The notes under the pieces: generated by a model
What the model was told of the DNA's origin: nothing
Database searches by the model: none
Seen by the model: the letters and a program-made list of their open reading frames with translations, nothing else
Part shown: positions 672 to 55,129 of the stretch, one piece after another
How the letters are laid out: every line of letters starts with the position of its first letter
How positions within the stretch are numbered: the first letter of the stretch is position 1
Source: Branchiostoma floridae
Taxonomy: Eukaryota > Chordata > Leptocardii > Amphioxiformes > Branchiostomatidae
Direction of reading: 5' to 3'
Assembly: GCF_000003815.2 (NCBI RefSeq)
Contig: NC_049980.1
Location: forward strand, 395,084 to 459,083
DNA length: 64,000 bases
Translations under genes and position numbers: made by a program

Positions 672-3240
672 ATTATTTATTTATTTATTTATTTATTTCA
701 TCTTGAGATAGATGGGTTACCCCTACAACAGTGCATACAGTAGTTGATTTCCAAGGGGGCCCATCAAACATACATGTAAATAATAAATACAGGACAAAAA
801 CGTGATAACAATCAGTCAAACTTTGAACACCAGGGACAACATACAGTACAGAAAACATAAAACCGGTGCGTCAAAACATAATCAGTGTCCGTACTCATGT
901 CGAAAACGTTCCAAGGTCAAAATCAATATGTCAAGAGATGGGGTGGAGGTCAGAGGTCAAATCATATATCAAATCATGTGTAAAACGAAAATTAATGAAA
1001 CTGAAATTTACAAAGCATGGATACTAAATCATATGTAGAGATTGAACAAACAAAAAATGTAAAGAACAGTAAGGCACATCAGAGACAAAGGTGCTTTTCC
1101 ATACTAAGTTTCAATATTACTTGAGGTCAGATAAACATATGTTCTTCAGAGCTGTTTTAAAGCCTTTTAGTGTTGTGATGTTTCTTATGTTATCTGCTAG
1201 TTTGTTGTACTGGCTAGTGCCAGTGTATGCAAATGTTTTTTGTCCACATGTGGTGGTGTAGCTTGGTGGGTGTAGTTTAGTGGTCTGCCTAGTGTTGTAA
1301 GTATGGATACGAGAGTTGTGCTGAAATGTGGCGGATAGGTATGTTGGTGCCAAGCCTGTCAGACATTTGAAAACCATAATGCACGTGTGCTCAAATCTCC
1401 TATCAGCCAGGTATTTCCAGTTGAGAGTTTGGTGGAGGTTCACAGTGCTGATGTCCCGCTGCCTACGTTGTAGCACCACCCTAGCCGCTCTGTTTTGTAG
1501 TATTTGTAGTTGCCGTTGTTTGGTGGCCCCACAGGTTCCCCAGACAGTGTCACAATAGTCGAAAATAGGCAATATCATAGTCTTGTACAACATGTCAGCA
1601 ATACTGAAAGTCAGGCAGTGTCTGAGGCGTCCAAGTAGTCCAATCCTCTGTGACACCTTACTACAAACTTTGTCTATATGTTCATTAAAGGACAGGTGGG
1701 AGTCAAGGTACAGACCAAGATATTTGAACGTATGAACTCTTTCTATGATTTCTTGGTCAATTTTGACTGTCAAGGACTGTGCTTGCTTTAACCTGTTAGC
1801 AGTGCCAAATAACATCCATTTAGTCTTGGTTACATTTAATGTTAAACGATTTGTTTGGAACCAAGTGGCCAAACCAGAGAGTTCATAGTTCAGAATTGAC
1901 TCAATATGTTTTACATTGTTGCTGGGATAGAATATTGCTGTGTCATTAGCATACAAACATATTTTACATGTGGTAACTACATCAGGTATATCATTAATAA
2001 ATAAATTGAAGAGCAACGGGCCCAGTATGGAACCCTGGGGCACTCCCACTGTAACAGGTAAGTATTCTGACCTACAACCATTCAGAGAGACAATTTGTTG
2101 TCTCCCCGACAGGTAGTTACTGAACCAAAGATGCTCCACACCCTGAATCCCGATCCATGACAGTTTGGTTAATAATAGTCCATGATGTACAGTGTCAAAT
2201 GCTTTCTTAAGATCCAAAAATACCGCCCCCACTAGGTTACCCCTGTCCATGTTATGAAGCACGTAGTCCTTGGCATCCAGTAGTGTTGTTGTTGTAGAGT
2301 GGCCTGTCCTAAAACCAGACTGTTGGGTGGAGAGGATATTGTGTTGATGCAGGTATTCAACGAACTGTGTGTGCACCTCTCTTTCAAAGGCCTTCATGAT
2401 GACAGGTAGGACAGATATGGGTCTGTAATTGTTTGGGTCTTCTGTATCCCCCCCTTTGTGTAATGGAGTGACCCTTGCCATCTTCCAGTCTGTAGGAATG
2501 TGGCCAGAGGAAAGGGACAAATTGAAAATGTGTGTAAGCGGTTTACATATACTAGGTGCGGCTACCTTCAGGAGCCTTGCATGTATCTTGTCCAGACCAG
2601 TCGCTTTATTACTGTGCAGTCCCCTTAGTTTATCATACACTCCCACTTCACTTATTTGCTTAAAGTTGAAGGTAGTTTTTAATTCTTTGTATCTTGCGGG
2701 GCACTTAGGGACCGTAGCTTGGTGCTTGAACTTCTCTGCCAGTTTGTTTCCAACAGTTACAAAGAACTTATTGAGGCAGTTTGCAATATTCGGAAGGTCC
2801 AGGATATGTTTCCCTTCCCAGCGCAGTGATTTGGTAACTGCTTGGGTCTTTTTAGGTAAGACCTCCTTAATTGTAGCCCACAGTTTTTTTGAGTCTGTCA
2901 GGTTTTCTTCCAACTTTTGTTGGCAGTAACTGGCTTTGGCTAGCCTTACCCTCTTGTTTACATAGTTACGTTTAGCTTTGTAATCCTCCCAATCTTTACT
3001 TTGACCTGTTCTGCGTGCCCTGGCCTTCGTGTCATCCCTGACTTGCATTAGGCTTTTTATGTCGGGTGTGAGCCATTTTGGCTGGGCAGCTTTTGTGCGT
3101 TTGGAAATATATGGTGCATGCACATCACTAACTGTGATAAACAGAGACTTGAAAAGAGACCAAGCCTCCTCAACCATTCATCAATCATAACCAATGCCAC
3201 AGCATTGGATCATCCCTACCTGCCAACAATGGACTATCCC
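672..3240 (-). mobile_element. 5'-truncated non-LTR retrotransposon (CR1/Jockey type LINE)
   Basis: Read on the minus strand, this holds a reverse-transcriptase frame (1117-3177), then a 3' untranslated region that ends in an (AAAT)n tail at about 672-698. Microsatellite tails of this kind are common in CR1/L2-like elements. The apurinic endonuclease domain that normally precedes the RT is missing: an in-frame stop lies directly upstream of the first Met, and only about 60 nt of unclear sequence follow. This is the usual look of a 5'-truncated insertion. The 5' boundary is approximate. Confidence 0.8.
1117..3177 (-). CDS. Non-LTR reverse transcriptase, endonuclease lost, active site mutated
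   Basis: The 686-residue open frame starts in the linker that follows the endonuclease in LINE ORF2 (HAPYISKR, PKWLTPDIK). It then runs through the RT palm and fingers: RPISVLP, QSGFRTGHSTTT, FLDLKKAFDTVHH, GVPQGSILGPLLF, and ends with the C-terminal region typical of these elements. The catalytic YADD box reads YAND at residues 409-412, so the first catalytic aspartate is Asn411 (codon AAT in place of GAT). With the endonuclease missing too, it is probably dead, although the frame is otherwise intact, which suggests a recent insertion. The Met start is just the first one after a stop codon, not a demonstrated initiator. Confidence 0.85.
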   Translation of the reverse strand: MVEEAWSLFKSLFITVSDVHAPYISKRTKAAQPKWLTPDIKSLMQVRDDTKARARRTGQSKDWEDYKAKRNYVNKRVRLAKASYCQQKLEENLTDSKKLWATIKEVLPKKTQAVTKSLRWEGKHILDLPNIANCLNKFFVTVGNKLAEKFKHQATVPKCPARYKELKTTFNFKQISEVGVYDKLRGLHSNKATGLDKIHARLLKVAAPSICKPLTHIFNLSLSSGHIPTDWKMARVTPLHKGGDTEDPNNYRPISVLPVIMKAFEREVHTQFVEYLHQHNILSTQQSGFRTGHSTTTTLLDAKDYVLHNMDRGNLVGAVFLDLKKAFDTVHHGLLLTKLSWIGIQGVEHLWFSNYLSGRQQIVSLNGCRSEYLPVTVGVPQGSILGPLLFNLFINDIPDVVTTCKICLYANDTAIFYPSNNVKHIESILNYELSGLATWFQTNRLTLNVTKTKWMLFGTANRLKQAQSLTVKIDQEIIERVHTFKYLGLYLDSHLSFNEHIDKVCSKVSQRIGLLGRLRHCLTFSIADMLYKTMILPIFDYCDTVWGTCGATKQRQLQILQNRAARVVLQRRQRDISTVNLHQTLNWKYLADRRFEHTCIMVFKCLTGLAPTYLSATFQHNSRIHTYNTRQTTKLHPPSYTTTCGQKTFAYTGTSQYNKLADNIRNITTLKGFKTALKNICLSDLK

Positions 3241-21876: not shown

Positions 21877-22257
21877 ATTACTTTAACAGAGACACAGAGA
21901 CACAGACGCTACTTTATGTTAATTACAATAAGGCAATACGACTGAGACAATTAAACATTCGGCTGAGTCCAATTTTTGCGTTGGATACCACAGTTAAACT
22001 AGATCAACAATAAAATATCGCCATGATCGTCATCAAACACTTCTAACAAGACTTTTTTTGATAATACAGTGATCACTACCAAACTATACTTGAAACTTTT
22101 GCTGTACAGAATCTGAACTTACAGTCAGGAACATCTGTTGCGGTCCGATATAGCGGTAATATTTGACCTCATTCAGTATGTATTACTATGCAACAGGAGA
22201 AATCTTTAAATATTCGTTTGTCCTCGAATCTGTTTACTACACATCAACATCTGTCAC

Positions 22258-22386
22258 CTGTATAGCGGCAGGATGTACCTGTTGTTACATCTGTATAGCG
22301 GCGGGATATACCTGTTGTTGCACCTGTATAGCGACGGGATGTACCTGTTGTTACATCTGTATAGCGGCGGGATGTACCTGTTGTGG
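22258..22386 (-). repeat. 33-bp tandem array of GPCR C-terminal codons and stop
   Basis: Four 33-nt units, in coding sense CAACAGGTACATCCCGCCGC then TATACAGATGTAA. Each is the last ten codons (QQVHPAAIQM) plus a TAA that exists only because of the repeat. The paralogue at 49957-51093 has a single unit and continues PAVDV before its stop. After the last unit here, a decayed GTTGATGTGTAG still matches that ending. Confidence 0.9.
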
Positions 22387-23460
22387 CGGGACGAGACGTC
22401 TCCAGAGACGGACCGCTCCGTTCCTGAGACTGTTCGACACCACCCTCCTCAGCGCCGGCAATCGGAAGGCGTACACGAGAGGATTCACGATGGGTGCCAA
22501 CCAAAAGACGACAAGAAAGACGAACCGAAACTGCAGATTGACACCGATACCCATCAGACTGTCCCAGGTGTTGTAGATGGTCACCAATATCGTCACTTGC
22601 CACCACAGAAACAGAAGCCAGGTGATCAGGAATACGACTATTATAACGAGCACGCTTCTTGCCTTTTTCGATGCGGAGATGATGTGCTGCTGGTTCATAT
22701 GTACGCACCCGACTTGCTGATGATTGTTCCCGTACGCAGATATGTTCAGCCGCCGTCTGAGCGTCACGAAGACGCGTGCGTTCGTGGACACCACCACGAC
22801 AACCCCTGTCGCACACAGAACCGTCATGAACACGATGTAGCTCCCCTCTACAGCGCCGAGGAAGCACCTATCGTTGCTGGTGTTCGTCCCTTTACAGTTC
22901 CATCCCATCATCGGGGAGAAGCAGAGCAGAGCGGCGGACACCCAAGCTCCTGCCACCGCCACCAGTACGTGCCCTCTGCCCACGGTGCCGTGGTAGAAAA
23001 TGGGGTGCTGGACGGAAACATACCGGTCCACGGACAGAAGTACCAGCCCGGTCAGAGACAGGATCACGGGGAAGTGCACCACCGTGACTAAAAAGACCAT
23101 AAACATTCGGTACGTCACAGCTTCCGTTAGCTCGAGCATGACATTGCCTACAATGTTAGTCACGATATCGGTTACGGCCAGATTTGCGATCAAGTAGTAC
23201 AGCGGTTTGTTTTGCTGTAACTTAGCAACGCCGAAGACAACAAGGCTGTTGAGCAACATGCCGATGACACTCAATACTATGGTCACGCTTTTCCTTCCAG
23301 GAAAACCGAACGGAGCCCACCCTGATATTGCACAAATCGTCCTCACAGTCTCGAATGTCAGGTTCTCGCTGAGGGCATTTTCCGCGAACCATTCCAGGCA
23401 CGGGCCCGTGGCGTTGGGAGGAGCGAACCCGGTCGTGGCATCACTGATGTTTCTCTCCAT
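22351..23460 (-). CDS. Class A GPCR, MECA type (S1P/LPA/cannabinoid-like), copy 1
   Basis: Seven-helix plasma-membrane receptor of 369 residues; ligand unknown. Visible marks: N-glycosylation sites in the N-terminus; TM1 with LLNSLVVFG; TM2 with NLAVTDI (Asp2.50); TM3 ending LLSVDRY; an extracellular loop with GWNCKGTNTSNDRC; TM6 FLITWLLFLWW; TM7 NPLVYAFR. There is no cysteine at the start of TM3, and the loop carries its own Cys pair after GWNC, which is how S1P, LPA and cannabinoid receptors are built. The upstream Met at 23478 is rejected because TTTCAG, a likely 3' splice site, lies between it and this Met, and because the paralogue starts here. Compared with the paralogue, the tail is five residues shorter, owing to the 33-bp array. 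Confidence 0.9.
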   Translation of the reverse strand: MERNISDATTGFAPPNATGPCLEWFAENALSENLTFETVRTICAISGWAPFGFPGRKSVTIVLSVIGMLLNSLVVFGVAKLQQNKPLYYLIANLAVTDIVTNIVGNVMLELTEAVTYRMFMVFLVTVVHFPVILSLTGLVLLSVDRYVSVQHPIFYHGTVGRGHVLVAVAGAWVSAALLCFSPMMGWNCKGTNTSNDRCFLGAVEGSYIVFMTVLCATGVVVVVSTNARVFVTLRRRLNISAYGNNHQQVGCVHMNQQHIISASKKARSVLVIIVVFLITWLLFLWWQVTILVTIYNTWDSLMGIGVNLQFRFVFLVVFWLAPIVNPLVYAFRLPALRRVVSNSLRNGAVRLWRRLVPPQQVHPAAIQM

Positions 23461-23924
23461 GTTCTCTGAAAGATGCATACAGTGAAAGTTAAACGGATTG
23501 TGGTACTGTTAGATCGGCAGCTGCAGATGGAAATGTGTTTCTCCTCTGAGTTCGCTAGCACTTTATGATAGTGTATCAGCGTAGGCGTTTCTGTATCACA
23601 TTTTGATCACAGCAGGTTGTCCATGAAAGCTCGACATGGAATACTGTTCAGGCCAATGGTCATCACTTGCATCTTCTTGGCGGATGGATTAAGTTAATTA
23701 GATGAATTTTCTTGGCATTAGCGACTGCTTTGTCGATTATTAACGTGGTTAACACAGATGTGCTTGCCTTTATCTGGAAGCAGGTATTTCACTGCGTCGA
23801 ACTTTTCAACACAAATCGCTTAAACCTTTTTACTAAATCTTCCAATACCTTCTTACCTGATTTGTTTTTCCTCTTCTTTCTTCTCTATCTCGTCTGATTT
23901 CGCCCTCTGTGGGGGCTCGATGCG

Positions 23925-24245
23925 CATCTATGAATCAGTCTCAGCGATTAATGGCGCAAATACATGTGACACGAAAGAAGATTAGACGGGCAAAATGCGC
24001 TGTTTTGATACCACTCTACTTCCCCGGTTGCCAGGTGTGATTATAGAAACATTTTGCTGTTAGTCCATGATGTAATCGTCTCTGTGGGGAATCAACTTTA
24101 TAAAGATTAGACCGGCTTTTTTCCAGATGTGCCCTTTTTCATCTTGCCGAAACTACACCGAAAGCAAAACATGTTATTACCATCTCCAGCTAGATTAAAC
24201 ATAAACCTTTCTTTGTGTATGACGCATTTCCAGGATCCTGTATCC
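23925..24245 (-). promoter_or_regulatory. Conserved upstream block of GPCR copy 1
   Basis: From GATTAATGGCGCAAATAC to GACGCATTTCCAGGATCCTG this matches, in inverse order, 49135-49445 upstream of copy 2. It lies about 0.5-0.8 kb 5' of the coding start, so it is either the retained promoter or just the arm of the segmental duplication. Function is inferred from position only. Confidence 0.55.
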
Positions 24246-24430
24246 TACGCAGGTGCAAGACAGAGTCACTTTGTCTTATGATTGACGTGTATGACCTCCT
24301 TTTTCACTTTGCGGCTTTATAAGCTCGTATGCTAAGACCAAATGGTGGCGTGCGCAGTACGTAGTTCCCGTGTGCCTGGAACTTATGATCGTGTTATACG
24401 CGTAGGCGTTTCTGTATCTAATGTTGAATT

Positions 24431-24721
24431 TTGAACCCGTTTTGCCACTTCCATGGAAGCAAGGCATCCTTTTTCCTCCACAATCCTCCCGAAAGGAGGA
24501 AGGTTCACGCTGAAGGCTTCATTCCTATAACTACATCGTTATGGAATAAGCTTCCGAGGACTTGCTTCCCCATGGGGTACAATCTGAAACTGTTTAAGTC
24601 AAGGTTTAACAGATATCAGGTATTTTTTTCTTGTCGCAAAGGAATTTATTTTCCTAAAATACCTATTGTTACTCTTTGTCAGGCGCATTGTTTCCAGACT
24701 TTGGCTCGTATTGCTTATTAG
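24431..24721 (+). pseudogene. LINE reverse transcriptase C-terminal fragment
   Basis: The frame contains RRKVHAEGFIPITTSLWNKL, then PRTCFP and LKLFKSRFNRYQ. This is the F-x-PRTSxLWNxLP...FKxRxxxY ending of CR1/Jockey-type RT proteins. It is only about 95 residues, with no upstream RT. Confidence 0.55.
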
Positions 24722-25000
24722 TTTCATAAAATACATAAGTTTATGTGATTTTCGAATACATTATGTATTTTTACTTCGATGACGTCGTATTTTTCCGCTA
24801 AAAACAAAAGTGGTAGCTGATATCAACTGTTTAATGCTTGTTGCATACCTTAGTATTTTTCGAGATTATTCTTTTCCCATTGTTTCAACCAGTAAAAACA
24901 CATAAATGACGTCATAATGGCCACCTGCAGTAAGCCTATAAGGGGCAATTGTCGCCGTTTCAATTGTGTTTCTTTTTTTTATTGTTTTGTAATGTTTTAA

Positions 25001-25125
25001 CCCTTCCAGACTGGGCGGGGGGAAGCTAAAAGTGGCTGCGCCAACTTTGACGTCGTTTAGCTCCCAAACAGCTTGTGCTAGAATAACCAAACTTAGTGAC
25101 TTTTCCTAGGATATTGTTGGCAACA
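25001..25125. repeat. One end of a TTAA-type element
   Basis: TTAA at 24997-25000 is followed by CCCTTCCAGACTGGGCGGG, then GCGCCAACTTTGACGTCG and GTGACTTTTCCTAGGATATTG. This is the inverse of the arm at 14392-14527 and 19935-20062. The opposite end was not found. Confidence 0.55.
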
Positions 25126-25129
25126 ATAG

Positions 25130-25984
25130 CAAAAAAAGTAAGTTTATAAATAGTACCTTCAATGTGTGTTACCTGGTCCCTAGAGAGCTATTTTTTTACC
25201 CGATGAATGTTGGACTAAACGAGGGGCGTCTTCCGGGATAAATATGCATAACAAAGTTATTGTTTTGAACCACATACTCGGGTCAATCCTGATTACCCAA
25301 AGGCATGTTTCATAAAATCACCTAGAATAGGATCTACCTATTTAAAGGCGTACATGGTATAGATATGTTCTAAAAGGCCGTGTTTTATGAGCTCAAATGT
25401 TGAAATGATATTGAATAAGCCAACAATATGACTGCTGTAATCCCGCATGTGTGAGAGAATCGACCAATAGCATTAAACAATTTTGCTCATTTAAATAATA
25501 GTGGCCTGGCTGCTAACTGTGGTTGCTCTGTGGATTTCAAGACAACTTACGGGGAGACGCAGCCATCAGAATTTTCCCCAGTAATACATGCAATCCAATG
25601 GGAGAGTTGAGGAAACAAATATGCAATTATCTCAAGAATAAAAAAGTTCAAGCCATACAAACTTACCTTCAAATGATAGCCTACTATGGCCAGTCTCAGC
25701 AAATTCATAGGCAAGAATTTCTGCACGGCTAGTCTTTTGATACACCCCCCTAATTAGAGCCCTTGGATTGGCCCATTTGGCTGAAAACAGCATTCTGGCG
25801 ACGATACCACTAATTCAGGGGGGCGCGGAAACCCCCTCGATGGAGAAAGGTCATTTTTTACAAGTGTAGGGTCTATCCTACCGCAGCCACTCCCAAAATG
25901 CCCAGATTTAACATAAAATCCCACCAAGAAACTTTAAGGCTTTTCAATGGTTTAAAGCCTTGTTTTTTTAACCGGGGGCTCTAG
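25130..25984. other. Upstream of p38, nothing recognised
   Basis: No supported gene. The p38 promoter and any 5' leader exon should be between here and 26174, but no motif is decisive. Confidence 0.4.
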
Positions 25985-26110
25985 GCGAAGGCGCTAACTG
26001 TTGCGTCACCCCTTACCTCCCCAGTCCCGTAGTCGGTGGCCGTAGGGGCAGTCAGACTGTTCACAAAAGGGCGGTCCACTTCTGGCGGTCGTCGGCCACT
26101 CTAGTCAGAT
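25985..26110 (-). pseudogene. LINE ORF2 C-terminal remnant
   Basis: On the minus strand a short decayed frame reads VADDRQKWTALL, followed by sequence matching CCCCTACGGCC...GGGACTGG of RTE-like ORF2 ends. It lies 64 nt upstream of the p38 start codon, so the p38 leader may include it. Confidence 0.5.
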
Positions 26111-26173
26111 GAGACATAGCGAGAACCAAAGAGCATTTGGGAGTCAAACCCTTTAAAAAATCCGCTTTGAAAC

Positions 26174-45122
<18,949 letters not shown>

Positions 45123-46199
45123 CTCCCTACAACAAACATATCAACTCTATATTATGGTGTCCTTTTGTATTTATTCATTTTTCATTAAGATAGGCAAAAA
45201 TATACAGACATTACAAACACAAAGAAATGGAGCCTCCCTTTGCGGATGTGTTACAGAGAAAATTGATAAATGATAACATGGTGTGGTAAAAAAAAAAATG
45301 CAACTTAAGTGTTACATAAAGATCGCCAGTTACCCCGGTGCCTCTCCAAGACGCAACAAAATATTCTGTCTTTTCATAAAATAATACATGTGAGTACTAG
45401 CTTTTGGAAGGAGTTGAAATTTAACCTTTTAGAAGTTCTTGACAAAAAAATAAAAATTTTGCCTGATAAAGTTGTACTATTTGCTACAGATGATGGATTT
45501 GCTGATTGACTTGACTTACTTGACTTTTGTCGGGTGTCGCTCCTCCTCTGCCTCCTTAACCACTGTAGCAGACCAGAAGACTCGCTGATAGGACTCCAAA
45601 ACAATAATAAAACTGGTTAAATGGATATTTAACCCACATTCCTGTAATAACCATTCCCACACTTTTCTCTAGTAGGGGAAAACATAAATACATTCATGAA
45701 AAAATGTACATAGCTGTCCTCATGGAGGTTGCAAAATGAACAGTTCCAGATTCGTGGCATCCTGTTTGCAGGCAAATATCTACATAGCTGACGGAACTAA
45801 AGGTATCTTAAACTACGATGTATGTAGATTTTACAAGGTTTATAAAAACTGATTTCCAAAGAATGGGTGTATCAAAATAATCAAACCAGGAAAGTCTGAT
45901 TTTGTGAGCTTTGTTTGGTTCATAGATAACAATAATATTGTAAATAGATTTGTTTATCTTAACTCAACTTAACCACTCTTAATGATTATTTTGATCAGGT
46001 ACACAGACTAAATTTCTTGATAATTCTCTACTTAGCGAATGTTTACCACTTCGATGGTACATGTATCATGATTAAAATTGTAACCAGCTTATTTTCACTT
46101 GGATGTCACTACTTGGTATTTTCTTACAGAAAACATCCATGTGAACGTTTTCAATCCATTTTCACGGGGTTTTAGCGTTAAATGGTAAAAAAAATTATT
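45123..46199. other. p38 3' flank, nothing firm
   Basis: 3' untranslated sequence is expected from 45123; AATAAAA occurs at about 45606 but no cleavage site can be set. TTTATTCATTTTTCATTAAG at 45170 may be a LINE tail. Confidence 0.35.
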
Positions 46200-46305
46200 A
46201 AAAAAATGAATCGACACCGACACCTTCGCTCAGTCGGTGGTTTATTGGGTGGTTTTAGCAAAGACCCAGGCGCTATGACACCATATACAGCTCGGGGCGG
46301 GTGAA
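46200..46305. repeat. Right-end piece of the 7066 palindromic element
   Basis: GAATCGACACCGACACCTTC...AGCAAAGACCCAGGCGC.ATGACACCATATACAGCTCGGGGCGGG, matched in broken form to 7700-7766. Confidence 0.7.
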
Positions 46306-47878
46306 CTGAATTGAGTTGAACTTGCAGTTAAAATTAACCCAATACCATCGTAGGTCAACCAGAATTTTATGCTTGTCAGAGGATCTGCTCCCCATGGTAT
46401 AACGGCACTTCGTACGTGCATATAGGGCTGCAATACCCTTGTTAAAACATTATGAAGCAATAGCAAACATTATTGAAACTTCGATGATTGTTCCTTTTGG
46501 GCTTACTGAAGTTGATTATAAAACAAAACACGCCTGGGAAATAAGGGACTGGATGTTTAGTCGCATCTTGTAGCAGCATTTTTGTGGCTTAATATTCCTC
46601 AGAATTAGTTTTGGGGTGTCCAGAGGATGTCATCAATAAAATCAAGTCATTGTAGCCAATCAAAACAAAAATTGAAGTAATATGACGCCACTATTGCGTC
46701 CTTTATGTGATTTTATTGTCTGGAATCATGGTAAAAGATTAATCTCGGAAAACGTCAAGTTTTACAGCAAACATTTATCAGTTAAGTTAATATCAGCTGT
46801 TTTCAGAAGCAAAAACAACAACGTCATTGTAAGTAAAAATACATACAGTATTCCACTCAATAGCCCACGAGCAAAAAATATTATTTATTCTATCAAACTC
46901 CCCTCTAAAAGCAATCCCAGCTAAAGGCTGGTAACTATGTGCCTGACAAGGCGTCAAAAAAGTTAGGTTAGGAAAATAATTTTCTGGGAGACGAGAAAAG
47001 AAATCGCCTTGTCATGTATATGTGCTCTTTGATCTTTGATTTCAAATTGGTTGCCTCTAGCCACTGCCATACTGACTACGTCGTATAATAGGGAAAATCA
47101 TTTGCCAGGGGCAGTTTTGCTATCAAAGCGTTTGTATATCCGCACCTATTAGATAGCGATACGAACCCTCAACAATGTAGTCACTTGGTAGGGTCTAGCT
47201 ATAGGTTGCCTCGGTTTGTTAATACTGCAGCAGCCCAGACAATTAACGCTGAAATGAAGTATATATACATGCATAGGTAAAGTTTTCATGGATATTTTGA
47301 ATTCTGCAAAATGCCTGTTGAATCTCATTGATGTATCATCTATTTGAAAAATAACACCCACTTTTCTGTTTCTATCCTATCAGAGTTGGGGGGTCCTAAG
47401 ATCGGAATACAGTCCGCTTACACCTATAAGAGGATCAAATCATAATTACATGCTGATCCCATTTGTGCTTTCATCTGGTTTACACAACATTAAGCGTTTG
47501 TACCATTTGAATTGGTTGGGGTGTGTTTTCAAGGCCAACGTTGGCCCATTTTGACAGCAAGGCAGTAAATCTTGTCATTTTCATTCAAACATCCCTAAAA
47601 TAAATGACAAAATACAGTTACCAGTCTGATTCTAAATTGGTCGTCTGGTACGGCTATATTGAACCAGTTTATCGCTAGTATATCTCACTGAAGAGATACT
47701 TTTTTACTAGTCATGACAAAGAAGACTTTGCTGCTTCTAGTTCCAGGCGGGGTTGCTACCTACTGGACTACAGACGCTTCAATTTTGGCGAGCTTATGAA
47801 ACCACAAAGAGCAAAACTAGGCCATACACGTCAATCATAGCCATAGGGCAAGATAACTCTGTCTTGCACCTGCGTAAA
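46306..47878. other. Intergenic, only a MITE end
   Basis: A single end of the 5614-type MITE at about 46618-46660 (GAGGATGTCATCAATAAAAT). Nothing else recognised. Confidence 0.4.
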
Positions 47879-49122
47879 GGTCCCCTCTCACTTGACGTGG
47901 GGCACGCTTGCGGCATTGCTGCGTTCGAAAACGCAGATGTACCCCCACGGAACCTAGAGGTGCCCCCACGAAACCTAGAGGTGCCGCAAGCAAACCTAGA
48001 AGTGCCGGTTGCAAGCGCGACGTTTTTTAAAAAGTTTAAAAATAACGCAAGTGGCAAGATGCCCCAACAGTGCCCCAATAATGCTCCCACAGTGCCACCA
48101 CCACACCCCAAACAGTATCAAGGATATATTTTGCCTATTTTACACCAAGAATAAAACCAAAAGTAAACATCCTTTTATCACCGAAAAGCTAGTTTAGATG
48201 CATTTCTAATACTTAACAGCGGTTTTCGATCCAGTTACAGCATTGCGAATTCCACAAAACTTACCTTGTATCCGTATTCAGAGTTAACTTGAAAATACAT
48301 CTTTTGATTTATTCAATAGAAAGTAGGTCAGTATTTTATACTTGAAAACAAAAAAATTAAGTAACTGGTTTATCGATCAACCTACGGATGTAGAGAAAAA
48401 AATTATCGTACAACGTTCAAAAAGAAATTATTTATGTTAGATGATAACGTTTGTTTTTGAGTTTGCGTTATAACGTTACAAGCAGTGTAATAATTGCTGG
48501 TAGCCTGCCGCCGATAAAATACAAAATTGCAGTCATTCGGACCCTTGGGCCATATTTTTCTCACTTTTTACAAATATGATAGACTTAGACATCATCGATA
48601 GGCTGGCAAGCCATCCGCCGACAATGAAAATACTCCGCGTCATACAAAAAAAAGTATGAAATATCAAGCATTTTCATTTTAAAAAATTGCAAAATTGGTG
48701 ATTATACATCAAGTAGCTTAATAAACATATAAATATACATCATTACACATAGCGTTACATGGTGCAAAACGTACACGTCGAGTCAAATCTGGTATATGGT
48801 TCATGTCCGTTCATTCGGGTCATTTCTTTTACTGTAAAAGTTTTTCAAGGTTATCTGTAGCATATGTATCATATAGTTCATTATCATAAGGGAAATCTTT
48901 TCAATATAAATCTCATTTTGGGCATTCTCATCATTTTCCGGTGATTTTTCATAAATTGACAACGTTGCAATTGTCAATAACATGTTCATTTAGTCTAGAA
49001 ACGCAACAGTGCCGCACGTCAGTGTGAGTGCAAGACAAAATCGGCGAAATTAACACAACAGTACCGCAGTGAACGAACGCAGCAATGCCGCAAGCGTGCC
49101 CCACGTCCAGTGAGAGGGGACC
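47879..49122. mobile_element. ~1.24-kb non-autonomous DNA transposon, ~55-bp inverted ends
   Basis: GGTCCCCTCTCACTTGACGT then GGGGCACGCTTGCGGCATTG is inverted as CAATGCCGCAAGCGTGCCCC then ACGTCCAGTGAGAGGGGACC. The right flank is TTAA (49123-49126); the left flank reads TAAA. TTAA plus GG ends would fit the Kolobok superfamily. An internal 18-bp repeat (CCTAGAGGTGCC/CCACGAA) is at 47940-48005. No transposase. Confidence 0.8.
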
Positions 49123-49134
49123 TTAAGATACAGG

Positions 49135-49445
49135 ATCCTGGAAACGCGTCATACGCAAAACGAGGTTTATGTTTAATCTACCTGATCATCATCATAACAG
49201 CAATATAATGTTCTACTTTCCGTGTCATTTCGGCAAGATGAAAAGCGGTCACATCTGGAGAAAAGCCAGTCTAATCTATACAATCTTGGTTCCCCACTGT
49301 GACGATTCCATCATGGACTAACATCAAACATGTTTTATAATCTCTCCTAGCAACGAATGTGTTACAATAGTATCAAAATAGCGCAATTTGTCCGTCTCAT
49401 TTTCTTTGGTGTTTCACGCATTTGCGTCATTAATCGCTTAGGCTT
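49135..49445 (+). promoter_or_regulatory. Conserved upstream block of GPCR copy 2
   Basis: Inverse match of 23925-24245 (CAGGATCCTG near the outer end, GCGTCATTAATCGCT near the inner end). The TTAA element inserted directly at its outer edge. Confidence 0.6.
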
Positions 49446-49956
49446 ATCCTCTGATGTGTATTGAGTCTCTGCAGTGGGCATAGAGATTGTGGTAGAGATT
49501 AATGAGAAGGAAGAAAAGGCTCTCGGCCAGCAGTTTCAGTTTTCATTGCAAGGCTACTACTGTCAGGTGGTATGGGAAGATTTTAGGATAGATTGAAGAG
49601 ATTTTGGTAGTCAAGAAGAGCTTGTCACCGATTCTCCGGACTAGGATGTGCTCATTTGAGGTCTAAACGTATTGACCTCGCTTCTTACTCTTTGTCCTCG
49701 ACCAAGAGGGGAGCTTAAGACGGGCATGTGTTGACTGTTTTGGAGTTAACTACTGCCTGAGCGTCTCTCATCAGAGTGTTTTGGAAAGGAGACGGACAAG
49801 AGCAGCGGTTACCCCTCCACGGCCATTTTCTTCTATCCAATGCAACCTCCAGACCACCTCATTTACAGACTTGGCAAGACAACAGGCATTCGACCAAGCT
49901 GTCATTGTTATTGTTATATACAGGGTTGTTGCAACTGCGTGAACATCTAACGAAAA

Positions 49957-51093
49957 ATGGAGACAAATCTCAGCGCTACCCTCAACGGGTCGGCTCTAGC
50001 CGCTCCTCCTAACACCACGGGACGATGCTTCGAATGGTTTGCGGAAAACGGCCTGAGTGAGAACGTGACATTCGGGACTGTGGTGAAGATCTGCGGGAAC
50101 TCTTCGGGCTGGGGTCCGTTTGCCTTTCCCGGCAGGGAAGTCTTGACGATTTTCTCAAGTTTTCTTTGTGTCCTTCTCAACGGCCTCGTTGTCTTCGGCG
50201 TTGCTAAGTTACAGCAAAACAAACCGCTGTACTACTTGATCGCAAATCTTGCAGTAACCGATATCATGACCAACATTGTAGGCAATGTCATGCTCGAGCT
50301 TACGGAAACTGTGACGTACCGAATGTTTATTGTCTTTATAGTCACGGTACTGCACTTCCCCGTGATCCTATCTCTGACCGGGCTGGTACTTCTGTCCGTG
50401 GACCGGTATGTTTCCGTCCAGCACCCCATTTTCTACCACGGCACCGTGGGCAGCGGGCACGTACTGGTGGCGGTGGCAGGAGCTTGGGTGTCCGCCGCTC
50501 TGCTCTGCTTCTCCCCGATGATGGGATGGAACTGTAAAGGGACGAACACCAGCAACGATAGGTGCTTCCTCGGCGCTGTAGAGGGGAGCTTCATCGTGTT
50601 CATGACGGTTCTGTGTGCGGCAGGGGTTGTCGTGGTGGTGTTCACGAACGCCCGTGTCTTCGTGACGCTCAGGCGACGGCTGAACATAGCTGCGAACGGG
50701 AACCATCAACAGCATGTCGGGTGCGTCCATATGAACCAGCAGCACATCATCTCCGCACAGAAAAAGGCAAGAAGCGTTCTCGTCATTATAGTCGTATTCC
50801 TTATCACCTGGCTTCTGTTTCTGTGGTGGCAAGTGACAGTACTGGTCTCCATCTACAATAGCTGGGAAAGTTTGGTCAGCATAGGCATCAATTTGCAGTT
50901 TCGGTTCGTGTTTCTTGTCGTCTTGTGGTTGTCTCCCATCGTGAATCCTCTCGTGTACGCCTTCCGATTGCCGGCGCTGAGGAGGGTGGTGTGGAACAGT
51001 CTCATGAACGGAGCGGTCCGTCTCTGGCGACGTCTCGTCCCGCCACAACAGGTACATCCCGCCGCTATACAGATGCCAGCCGTTGATGTTTAA
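49957..51093 (+). CDS. Class A GPCR, MECA type (S1P/LPA/cannabinoid-like), copy 2
   Basis: A single-exon 378-residue receptor, close paralogue of 22351-23460 and inverted relative to it. TM1 about 62-84 (Asn75), TM2 92-114 (Asp102), TM3 121-150 ending DRY (149-151), TM4 167-188, TM5 210-234, TM6 272-298, TM7 312-337 with NPLVY (330-334). There is no TM3 cysteine; Cys193 and Cys203 in GWNCKGTNTSNDRC can pair within loop 2, as in S1P/LPA/CB receptors. The TM6 motif is TWLL, not CWxP. The tail ends PAVDV, and Val-Asp-Val could be a class II PDZ ligand, lost in copy 1. The start follows CTAACGAAAA. A 5' leader intron is possible (TATATACAG at about 49921). Ligand unknown. Confidence 0.92.
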   Translation: METNLSATLNGSALAAPPNTTGRCFEWFAENGLSENVTFGTVVKICGNSSGWGPFAFPGREVLTIFSSFLCVLLNGLVVFGVAKLQQNKPLYYLIANLAVTDIMTNIVGNVMLELTETVTYRMFIVFIVTVLHFPVILSLTGLVLLSVDRYVSVQHPIFYHGTVGSGHVLVAVAGAWVSAALLCFSPMMGWNCKGTNTSNDRCFLGAVEGSFIVFMTVLCAAGVVVVVFTNARVFVTLRRRLNIAANGNHQQHVGCVHMNQQHIISAQKKARSVLVIIVVFLITWLLFLWWQVTVLVSIYNSWESLVSIGINLQFRFVFLVVLWLSPIVNPLVYAFRLPALRRVVWNSLMNGAVRLWRRLVPPQQVHPAAIQMPAVDV

Positions 51094-53032
51094 CTTAAAG
51101 TATAGACAGTTTGTGACAATTACGTTGATCTAAGCGTTTCGGCTGATCCAAGAAAAAGAAATCTATTGTAGCCCTTAGATGACAACAAAATACACAAAAA
51201 GTAAGAGCATTCGTTCTTTATCTCCGGAATTCGAGTTGTATGTTGTGCGTTGTAGCTAGGTTTAGTATATTTCGAACTCCGCAGTGCCGCACAAGTACCC
51301 AAAGTGCAGTGAGATACCACCTTTAGCGGTCGGGGGTGAATTACTTGAAGCTTATAGTTAGTTTTATTTTGCTAGTGTCTGTTATATAATGCCAAACTGT
51401 AAACGGTGTCAGTTGACATCAATACGACAGTAATTGCTTCAGTTGTGACCACTGGAGTGTAAGGTTAAGGAACACTTAAAACGGGAGGAGCCTACTGTTT
51501 TCGATAACAGACCGCATCAGAATTTCCAACTGTTGCTGCAACTGTTTATTTTGCGTAAATATTTTTTTCAACATTAAATAGCCAGGCCTATATGGTTTGG
51601 TAAGTATAATTATATTGTATTGAGACATTAGACAATTGTATTTCTAGTGTCAGAAGCAAAGTGTAACATGATAAACATTGAGATTTTATTGTATGATAAC
51701 CTTTAATTTCACACAAAGCGTTTGTAATGTTGGTAATGTAAAATGTACAAACCGTCTTAACGATCTTCAGTTTTCGATATTGCCAATTTGTGGTGCAGTA
51801 GACGTTTTTTTACCTTCCAAAACACATTCTGTGTGATCTTTTAGTTGTTAGCACCGTCTTCTATTCGAATAGCGTGTATGGCGGCCTTGAAAAGGTGTCT
51901 TCTGAAAAGAAACAACTGTTCCGCCATATCTTCTACTGTATTTTGTACCTTGATATTAAATATACATAAATAAATGCGATCACTCTGTTGCCTTACTGTG
52001 ACCAAAATTTGATTTGTGTTAACACTGACTTCATATGCAATATCATGCAAAGGTGTAAACAAACATGAGTAAAGAAAGCATCAAAACACACAGGAGTACG
52101 TTCACTGCGGCACTCTTATGTTATTTTCACAGATTTTTTATTATTTACCTGCTTTAAAAAAAACAGGAAATGTTTTTGGTAGGGATCACGATTTGGAGTG
52201 TGTGATTCCGGACCGATACTTTAGGACCTCTGGATGGATTGCGATCATGTTTGCTGTGGGGTTAGATATTGTAAGCCATTGTGCATTAGAAGTTTGCTGC
52301 AGTTTTGTCGTTCGTTTGAAAAAAAAATTACACCCCTTTTTAACAGTAGATTGGTCCCAATAACTGATAACTGAATACTATCTAGAGCAAGCCAGCTGGG
52401 CAACTAGGCACCCCTATCACCACTGTGTGCGGGGTGAATCACTACATACACATTAGGGATATAACGCCGATGGCTGCACAGATCCACAACTAGTAGAAAG
52501 AGTAACTGTGACCATCCCTGTGTGAAATGAACCATGCATTTATATACACATTAGAGATATGTGCCAGGTGTAGGTGTAACAATAGGAAATGAAAAGGAAA
52601 TGGTGAGGTCATTACAAAGGTGTGGTTTTGGACCTCAAATTTTACCATAGGTAGGTATAAAAGAACAATGGTGGAATAATTTTCACAAACATCAAACCAT
52701 GTCAACCCCACAACACACCATACGCACCATCACAATACAAAATATTTCATGCAGGTTTGAGTTTCAGACTCTTGTTTCAAGTGATTTTGATATTGCGCAA
52801 TACGTAAAAGTATGACTTAGCAGACAACAAACTACACAAATGTAAGAAAATTCATTCTTTATTACTGAAATTCGTTGAGCCATTCGGATCTATTAACCCC
52901 GCTAACCGTTGCCCAAAGTGCAGGGAGATACCACCTTAACTGTGTACTTCAAACTTTCTCTGTACGTGTTGGCTGCGCCTTTAATCCCTGAAAACGCTAT
53001 AGTGTCTGCTATGCAGGCCATACCCTGCTTGA
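51094..53032. other. Intergenic with two CACTGC-family MITE fragments
   Basis: Fragments at 51165-51345 and 52830-52945 both carry ACAAAATACACAAAAAGTAA-like and AATTCGTTCTTTAT-like cores and end AAAGTGCAG(T/G)GAGATACCACCTT. No gene seen. Confidence 0.5.
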
Positions 53033-53555
53033 AGGGGCATTCCACTCCACACGGGAGTGTTATTTTCCGATAGATATTACTTTTAGGAAGTAATAAATGC
53101 ATTCTTCTTCACATTATACGATAAAGTACCCAGTTGCTCCACTTGCCTCAAAAGCATAAAGTCTTCTACTAAACTCCCAAGGTACCCTCTAATTGAATTA
53201 ATCCTTTGGCTAAATACAATGCAAAACTTTTAGAAAAGGTTACAAATCTAATTTCAGGATCGCTAAAAAATCTCGTTTTGTTATGTGTTCTTTGCAATCT
53301 TATGAGCAATGTGCTTTCTCGGTGTACTTAGCGATCCTCATTAATTCCGAAAATATGCACGATAAACAAAGTGTCTATGCGTATAAGGAATGCATGGGTA
53401 GGGTCTGCATGGGTTTAGTGAGTGTCATATTGTTTTACAGAACAAACATCGCGCAATTCATCCCAAGGTGAATTCAACAAATTTCGTCTGGTTATGTATT
53501 CATTGACACATTATCTATTGGAAAACACCACCCCCTTCTGGAGTGGAATGCCCCT
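53033..53555. mobile_element. ~520-bp MITE, ~45-bp inverted ends
   Basis: AGGGGCATTCCACTCCACAC...TTTCCGATAGATA is inverted as TATCTATTGGAAAACACCAC...GGAGTGGAATGCCCCT. The right flank is TTTAG. A small internal frame at 53283-53471 is not credible as a gene. Confidence 0.75.
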
Positions 53556-53989
53556 TTAGTAGTACACAAGCCAAAAAAAAAAAGGACAACAATATGATAG
53601 AAATGATTATATATGTATTTCTTCTTTTAACCAGTAGGACACTTGTCTGAAAATCAGTGACCGGGAACTTTCATTAGTGTTTTCGTGTCTTAAAAAAGTT
53701 TAAAACATCAAAATTTCAAAAATGTTGTCTTAACTTTTGTTTACATATAGCTTGCCTCTTTAAACTGTATAACTGCGCTCTTGAGATAACTCGAGCGTTC
53801 GAACTGTTAAACACCAAAATCTGAAAATGTTTTGACACAGTCAGTTTGTACATATCAACGCATAAATGTTCAATTTATATACCTCTTTAGCTTCTATGAC
53901 TTACTGAACAGTCATTGGCTAATTTTTTAGACGCCACACTTATTATTCACACATTCTGGTGGTGATTGGCTACGCATTTGATGTTAATA

Positions 53990-54135
53990 CTCCTCCAGAA
54001 GTTCTTTTAATCGTTGGTTGTCTCAAACATTGATTGACCGGGCGTTGGACGTCATTGAATCACTCCTGTAGATCGTGCCATACGTTTATTGGTTGTCAAG
54101 GTACTAAATTTGTGATTGGTTGTGCGCGCGTGACG
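53990..54135 (-). repeat. Decayed tandem copies of the C2 gene's C-terminal codons and stop
   Basis: On the minus strand the coding end reads CCAATCAACGTCTGGCACGA then CCTTATGGAGGCCGAGTGA and GACGTCA. At 54060-54092 CCAATAAACGTATGGCACGA then TCTACAGGAGTGA repeats it and still translates PINVWHDLQE-stop. Weaker CCAATCA/GACGTC copies follow to about 53990, roughly 60-80 bp per unit. Confidence 0.75.
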
Positions 54136-54452
54136 TCACTCGGCCTCCATAAGGTCGTGCCAGACGTTGATTGGCTTTCCCCGATGACGTACCGCCCTCC
54201 GAACGTGCTGCAGTTCGCTCTCCTCGGTAGCCATCGCCCCGAGCCGAACCTGTCCGATCACTCCGTCGGCAAGTATTCGGGCGTGATCGTAAACAGTCAC
54301 GATGAAGCTGCAGTCCGCGAAGACGTCGGATGGAAACTGGAAACTGAAGGCCTCCTTGAAGACAGGGTCGCACGTCTTGCGCTGGATCTTGGTATGTCTC
54401 GTGTCGTCTTCGGCGCCATCAGGTCCGTGCATGACGATCTTTACATAAGAGT
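54136..54452 (-). CDS. Synaptotagmin-like protein, last exon (second C2 domain)
   Basis: After TTTTCAG, the exon encodes (D)SYVKIVMHGPDG, KIQRKTCDPVFKEAFSFQFP, FIVTVYDHARILADGVIGQV, and ends GKPINVWHDLMEAE-stop. This follows the C2B order DPYVK...T.NPxFNESFxF..VxVxDxDxxxxNDxIG..PIxxWHxL. Of the acidic Ca2+-binding residues only some remain (YDHARILADG), so Ca2+ binding by this domain is doubtful. C2B domains of this family bind membranes or SNAREs in vesicle traffic. The exon starts in phase 1 and needs an upstream partner. Its 3' edge is tandemly repeated downstream. Confidence 0.85.
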
Positions 54453-55129
54453 CTGAAAAGAATAAATGAAAAAATTTAGTCGAATAAGTTTTCGCTGAGC
54501 TAAGTGAATGGTACAAAAAGACATAAATTAGATACATTGCTAAAAGTACCGTGGTCTAGCATATGAGCTTGGCTTCATTTTGCTTATATGTAAAGGTGAA
54601 ATAGTAAGATTAGTTAGCTATAGTTGATTTGGTCAAAGCGCATCATTAATATTTTCAGTGGTATATAGTTAGAATGCAAGCTAGAACGTTTAACAAAAAA
54701 GACAACATATAACGTCAAAAGATTGAAATTATATGCAGATGAAGTAAGCAAATTGTCAACCGGCACCGATTTCTTCTTTAAATATCTTACAATGAAAATT
54801 CGCGTGCCTTTGCTTCAAAGGGTCCAGTAATAGAAATGAAATACGTTGCCTATGAAGACAGTCTTTTTTTTTTCTTTACAAAACATTAGGATTATATAAA
54901 CGTTTGTTGAAATCAGCTAAGCTCGTGAAAGCCTGTCTCCTTGGAGTCTCATCTGGCGGGCGTACATCACACACAGTCCGTGTGTGCTCTTTCTAACCCC
55001 AATTACTTCCCATGGAACCTCGGGGGAGGTTGCGTTAAGCTGCACTCGGAGGGATCGTCACATAATGTGACATTTTGTCTATTTCGAAATGTAATCGTTG
55101 CCAAAATATCTATCAACCATCCACTAATA

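Follow-up and report, generated by a model that had tools for sequence, protein, structure and literature searches.

Tandem arrays whose units span an exon-intron boundary have been described in amphioxus under the name of mirages. The earlier note on the DNA analysed here had pointed to such structures, and they are in print (PMC3087553 and PMC3902484, in the parts of both texts available). The available text of PMC3087553 describes mirages in the Branchiostoma floridae globins BflGb6 and BflGb9 and cites Adh3 and other loci. According to this source, the length of a mirage differs between haplotypes and splicing is apparently normal, RT-PCR for the globins suggesting that it is undisturbed; intron gain from mirages, as raw material for new introns, is proposed. 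Mirages in PGBD5 are described in the available text of PMC3902484, in which Adh and troponin C are cited. A genome-wide survey of mirages was not found in the literature searched.

The window, by which we mean the whole 64,000-nucleotide stretch analysed (C2:395084-459083), is part of a B. floridae genome of 513 Mb in 431 contigs. It contains a p38 kinase gene (26201 to ~44231, + strand), two related GPCR open frames (copy 1, 22354-23508, - strand; copy 2, 49951-51090, + strand) and a C2-domain exon (54139-54555, - strand). At 1120-3177 (- strand), a reverse transcriptase domain (PF00078) in an open frame of 686 codons marks a retroelement. Six repeats in these genes had been proposed each to hold a coding-exon edge. 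Two of the six are clean exon-edge minisatellites, both of them in p38 (exon 7 donor and exon 8 acceptor); those at p38 exon 11 and the C2 gene are weak, that at p38 exon 4 is not supported in the form proposed, and that at GPCR copy 1 is not a stop edge.

The exon 7 donor array (37837..38422, + strand), first described as ~77 bp x 7-8, was recovered by TRF as 78 bp x 7.5, with unit lengths of 77-80 bp. The donor CAG|GTGTGT is intact at six of the seven junctions listed, and the exon part of the units carries substitutions and one insertion. Beside the array lies a run of N (37391..37827), which coincides with a gap in the tblastn match: neither p38 residues ~150-189 (human numbering) nor the functional edge of exon 7 were found in the window sequence, and both presumably sit in this gap. 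A genome search with three of the units returned, besides their own locus, a single 78 bp match of 95% identity on contig C5, where another p38 gene has its exon 7 edge; as this search skips very common words, a single-locus outcome for exon 7 or exon 8 units is not proof of rarity.

In the piece of the C5 paralogue that we compared (L090, 431 bases), exon 7 and its donor are present once, and the next best 30-base match reaches 16/30. Seven units of the window align to this piece, starting 37-40 bp ahead of the donor and reaching ~36 bp past it (53-69 identical positions in 71-74 columns), and one alignment extends across the following CAGCAG. The ~900 bp between the array and position 39328 have no counterpart in L090, and the intron common to both genes resumes at 39328..39567 (+ strand; alignment score 179, compared with a maximum of 27 in 100 shuffles). 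Since C5 has a single copy and the intron continues at 39328-39567, the exon 7 unit consists of the final 37 bp of the exon followed by ~40 bp of intron. At the level of sequence, the paralogue confirms that the unit spans the exon-intron boundary, and the C5 gene is the one that keeps the single-copy state of this edge. A tblastn fragment in the stretch that separates the exon 7 array from exon 8 (39608-39640, + strand; E 0.066) may be what is left of an additional, alternative exon 8, because exon 8 is matched twice in the C5 p38 gene (16216385-16216456 and 16217211-16217288).

The exon 8 acceptor array (40240..40494, + strand) was delimited by TRF as 31 bp x 8, in agreement with the size first given, and the functional acceptor, at 40486, is preceded by seven decoys. 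Every one of the seven copies contains the acceptor region and matches the exon over 9-16 bp, so that this unit, too, spans the exon-intron boundary. The AG is intact in six of the seven decoys, and use of any of the seven is predicted to lead to a stop after 10-32 codons. Used as a genome query in the same search, with very common words skipped, the array matched its own locus only. The window and C5 p38 genes are 79% alike across exon 8 and into the following intron when aligned from 17 bp before the acceptor. The view that the units at exons 7 and 8 consist of the gene's own edge plus intron is thus upheld by genome matches that lie at their own locus, plus the C5 exon 7 edge. An assembly error could be suspected where the N gap adjoins the exon 7 array, and a dispersed repeat would be another source of such units. 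We consider both very improbable: the copies differ from one another, matches to the units in the genome are limited to this locus and the C5 exon 7 edge, and the same structure has been published for other genes (PMC3087553 and PMC3902484, available parts).

The two other p38 repeats are of a different standing. The array at the exon 4 acceptor (36127..36283, + strand; TRF 40 bp x 3.9) abuts the acceptor and ends where the intron ends; it has at most 4 bp of exon in common, and 12/500 shuffles equalled its best exon match, which leaves a copy of the exon edge unsupported. The exon 11 donor (intron from 44230) has one copy 128 bp downstream (44205..44380, + strand; 21/30), with 18 bp of exon and 6 bp of intron matched. 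Its score was equalled by none of 500 shuffles but by 16/178 intronic 50-mers of p38; the proposed doubling of this edge therefore stands as one decayed copy that other intronic sequence of the gene can match in score. Local-repeat windows amount to 10.7% in p38 introns, 6.0% in the whole window and 4563/194077 in the gene sample described below, and p38 also holds TRF arrays that touch no modelled edge, e.g. at 30485-30860 and 32731-33087. The p38 intron sequence at 41160-41282 gives a 94% match to its own reverse complement and matches dozens of genome sites, as a dispersed fold-back element. In the strict test described below, one of 16 modelled p38 edges was flagged; as the exon 7 edge itself lies in the N gap, it was added by homology, giving 2/17 edges. 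This compares with 0.54 expected at the gene's own intronic rate (P 0.10) and corresponds to P 0.025 at the edge rate of the sample; counting both weak edges (4/17) would give P 0.002.

Two repeats had been put forward as copies of a stop-codon edge. The GPCR copy 1 array (22258..22384, - strand; TRF 33 bp, or 11 codons, x 3.8; stop TAA at 22351-22353) is real, but it is an in-frame coding repeat and not a copied stop. GPCR copy 2 has the C-terminus PPQQVHPAAIQM-PAVDV-stop. In copy 1, coding sequence common with copy 2 is followed by in-frame 33 bp units with the codons TAA, CAA and TAA between them, and the last unit is followed by VTDVDV-stop, the counterpart of MPAVDV-stop in copy 2. In copy 1, the sequence corresponding to the C-terminal tail of copy 2 is at 22237-22260 and thus lies beyond the in-frame units, which indicates that the repeat grew inside coding sequence; as the array precedes this coding tail, a copied stop edge was ruled out. 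The copy 1 protein now ends at the stop of the first unit junction. In-frame coding minisatellites are a known general class, which the GPCR repeat resembles in that its 33 bp unit makes 11 codons in frame, and from which it differs in that a stop at a unit junction now terminates the protein.

For the C2 gene, the stop edge (54120-54179) has one decayed copy (54034-54097; together 54034..54179, - strand), 82 bp away and including the stop region. Its score of 43 compares with a maximum of 30 in 500 shuffles and was matched by none of 188 other noncoding stretches. The repeat described there (~60-80 bp, decayed) is therefore present above both backgrounds, but as only one decayed copy. The proposed stop-codon version fails for the GPCR array, and for the C2 gene it has this single copy in its favour. 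Downstream of the C2 exon, the region 53900-54200 contains several ATTGG (inverted CCAAT) and GACGTCA-like motifs, which is unusual for a 3' end.

Exon edges elsewhere in the same genome were sampled from Pfam matches (kinesin, myosin head, CCT, globin and SNF). Their positions were set by profile-match ends and splice-site scores, not by transcripts, the splice-site weights being taken from general knowledge. An edge was scored positive when the 30 bases centred on it had a copy of at least 24/30 within 1 kb, low-complexity sequence excluded. Two batches of loci consisted of the 30 best-scoring matches each, so that long, conserved exons are over-represented; further regions were picked for exon density, and L084 was picked because its rows looked duplicated. 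Exon rows were chosen by eye, in the first set 56/134 for kinesin, 61/142 for myosin and 9/9 for globin, and in the second 44/60 for CCT, 14/103 for SNF and 28 for kinesin. Four decoy copies in L028 were dropped, as were eight duplicates (369 edges becoming 361), and many of the myosin loci form one tandem gene cluster and are not independent. Removal of the 18 globin edges (known cases) and one L084 edge (targeted) gave a set of 342 from kinesin, myosin, CCT and SNF genes.

The spread of edge copies to other genes was borne out, as 8/361 edges carry them, globins and L084 included. An excess of edges over shuffled positions was not found in either set of this gene sample: 5/211 edges had a copy in the first, compared with a permutation mean of 3.8 (P 0.34), and 3/158 in the second, compared with a mean of 5.1 (P 0.90). 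With known and targeted cases left out, the rate was 5/342, or 1.46% (95% interval 0.5-3.4%), compared with 2.1-2.7% for intronic positions 15-900 bp from edges. In the exon interior, 20-100 bp inside, 22/9234 windows (0.24%) were positive with globins and L084 left out; the corresponding count for the first set, with globins and the L028 copies included, was 21/2395. With the threshold set at 22, 23 or 26 of 30, the positive edges numbered 7, 6 and 3 of 342, and in each case the intronic rate was higher. In this small sample local duplication is thus no commoner at edges than inside introns, and the general edge-aimed process that had been suggested is not supported.

Exon edges might nevertheless be preferred starting points, for instance if splicing-linked RNA:DNA hybrids, breaks or the splice-site sequence itself favoured slippage or repair copying. 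A stricter background, limited to windows with copies on one side so that an array counts about once, gave 2.74 edges expected and 5 seen (1.8-fold, P 0.14), and 2.9 expected and 8 seen (P 0.01) when known and targeted cases were kept; an edge excess of about two-fold is therefore possible, in a sample that is small. Copies that extend outward only were found at 1.46% of edges, 2.08% of positions 15-60 bp away and 0.68-1.12% of those farther in, and p38 has its own clustering. A rise of outward-only copies close to edges is to be expected in any case, however, because copies cannot extend into the exon, and the plain measure shows no peak at edges at any threshold tried. On balance we regard such a preference as unlikely.

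The new cases are found at two kinesin edges (donor L022, copies at +174 and +479; acceptor L028, copies at -154 and -305), a myosin donor (L036, copy at +86), a CCT acceptor (L075, copy at -78), a CCT donor (L076, copy at +134, with 20/21 exon and 16/16 intron positions matching) and an SNF donor (L084:374-542, copy at +168, with 80/80 exon and 22/28 intron positions matching). For the SNF transporter copy, conversion or a used alternative exon are possible readings of an identical exon beside a diverged intron. The two globin loci have edge copies of the published sizes, a 157 bp donor copy and 158 bp acceptor units. All eight positive edges of the sample, including the known and targeted ones, have their additional copies on the side of the intron (downstream for donors, upstream for acceptors), and the copies at p38 exons 8 and 11 have the same direction. 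In L022, L036, L066, L076 and L084 the spacing exceeds the length of the matched block, and therefore not all cases are clean head-to-tail units; L076 and L084 could be short copy-and-paste events. An insertion with target-site duplication was considered for L076, where the spacer is partly a dispersed repeat, and was rejected as this repeat starts inside the duplicated intron part. Near a myosin exon, the units of a 43 bp x 6.9 array (L033:75-361) carry CAG|GTATGT on the strand of the gene, perhaps another donor mirage, at an exon outside the modelled set. Close to a globin exon, a 17 bp x 16.8 array (L065:1084-1369) spans no modelled edge.

An exon copy as exact as that of L084, together with the six of seven exon 7 junctions and six of seven exon 8 decoys that are intact, would fit with decoy splice sites being kept for a function, be it slower splicing, unproductive transcripts or alternative exons. 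We think this improbable, given the stops predicted from all seven exon 8 decoys, the substitutions and insertion in the exon part of the exon 7 units, a C5 paralogue that does without the exon 7 array, and the undisturbed splicing that RT-PCR suggests for the globins (PMC3087553, available part).

The explanation that we consider probable is that mirages are ordinary local duplications that happen to span an exon edge and are filtered by coding selection, so that no mechanism aimed at edges would be needed. A segment comprising the end of an exon and the start of an intron would be duplicated, as the single-copy C5 paralogue shows for exon 7; the extra copies would then multiply as an ordinary minisatellite, to judge from copy number and the similarity of units. 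Extra copies are observed on the intron side, where they would survive since splicing can go on using the edge attached to the exon and the protein is unchanged, and duplications inside exons would mostly be lost to selection. Edges may then only appear special, because the source is easily recognised on the exon side. The GPCR array is separate from this, an in-frame coding repeat shortened by a stop at a unit junction. Against ordinary local duplication can be set the L084 contrast between exon and intron, which simple neutral decay does not predict, as well as the one-sided counts, the 2/17 edges of p38 and the outward-only rates near edges; the short matched blocks of the five loci listed above count against clean tandem duplication in particular.

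We entertain, as a tentative and rather doubtful possibility, that edge duplications, at ~1.5% of edges, occur often enough to keep spare splice sites in steady supply, and that edges are also favoured about two-fold. For genes with ~14 internal edges, that rate would amount to perhaps one gene in five, and the birth of introns and exons could then be followed directly in lancelets. With a rate measured against controls and a single-copy paralogue, the idea of mirages as a source of introns (PMC3087553, available part) becomes countable. The lack of a clear edge excess is also a warning against deducing a targeted process from striking single loci.

Intron gain by tandem genomic duplication (the subject of PMC4974935 and PMC3443670) resembles the present cases in that a duplication copies splice signals, and differs from them in that the present cases show no new intron. 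The p38 exon 7 and exon 8 arrays are real new members of the known mirage kind: like the amphioxus mirages of globins, Adh3, troponin C and PGBD5, they have a unit that spans an exon-intron boundary. Compared with those mirages, as far as the available parts of the published texts describe them, the present analysis adds new genes (p38, two kinesin, one myosin, two CCT and one SNF), a paralogue with the single-copy state, and a rate with controls.
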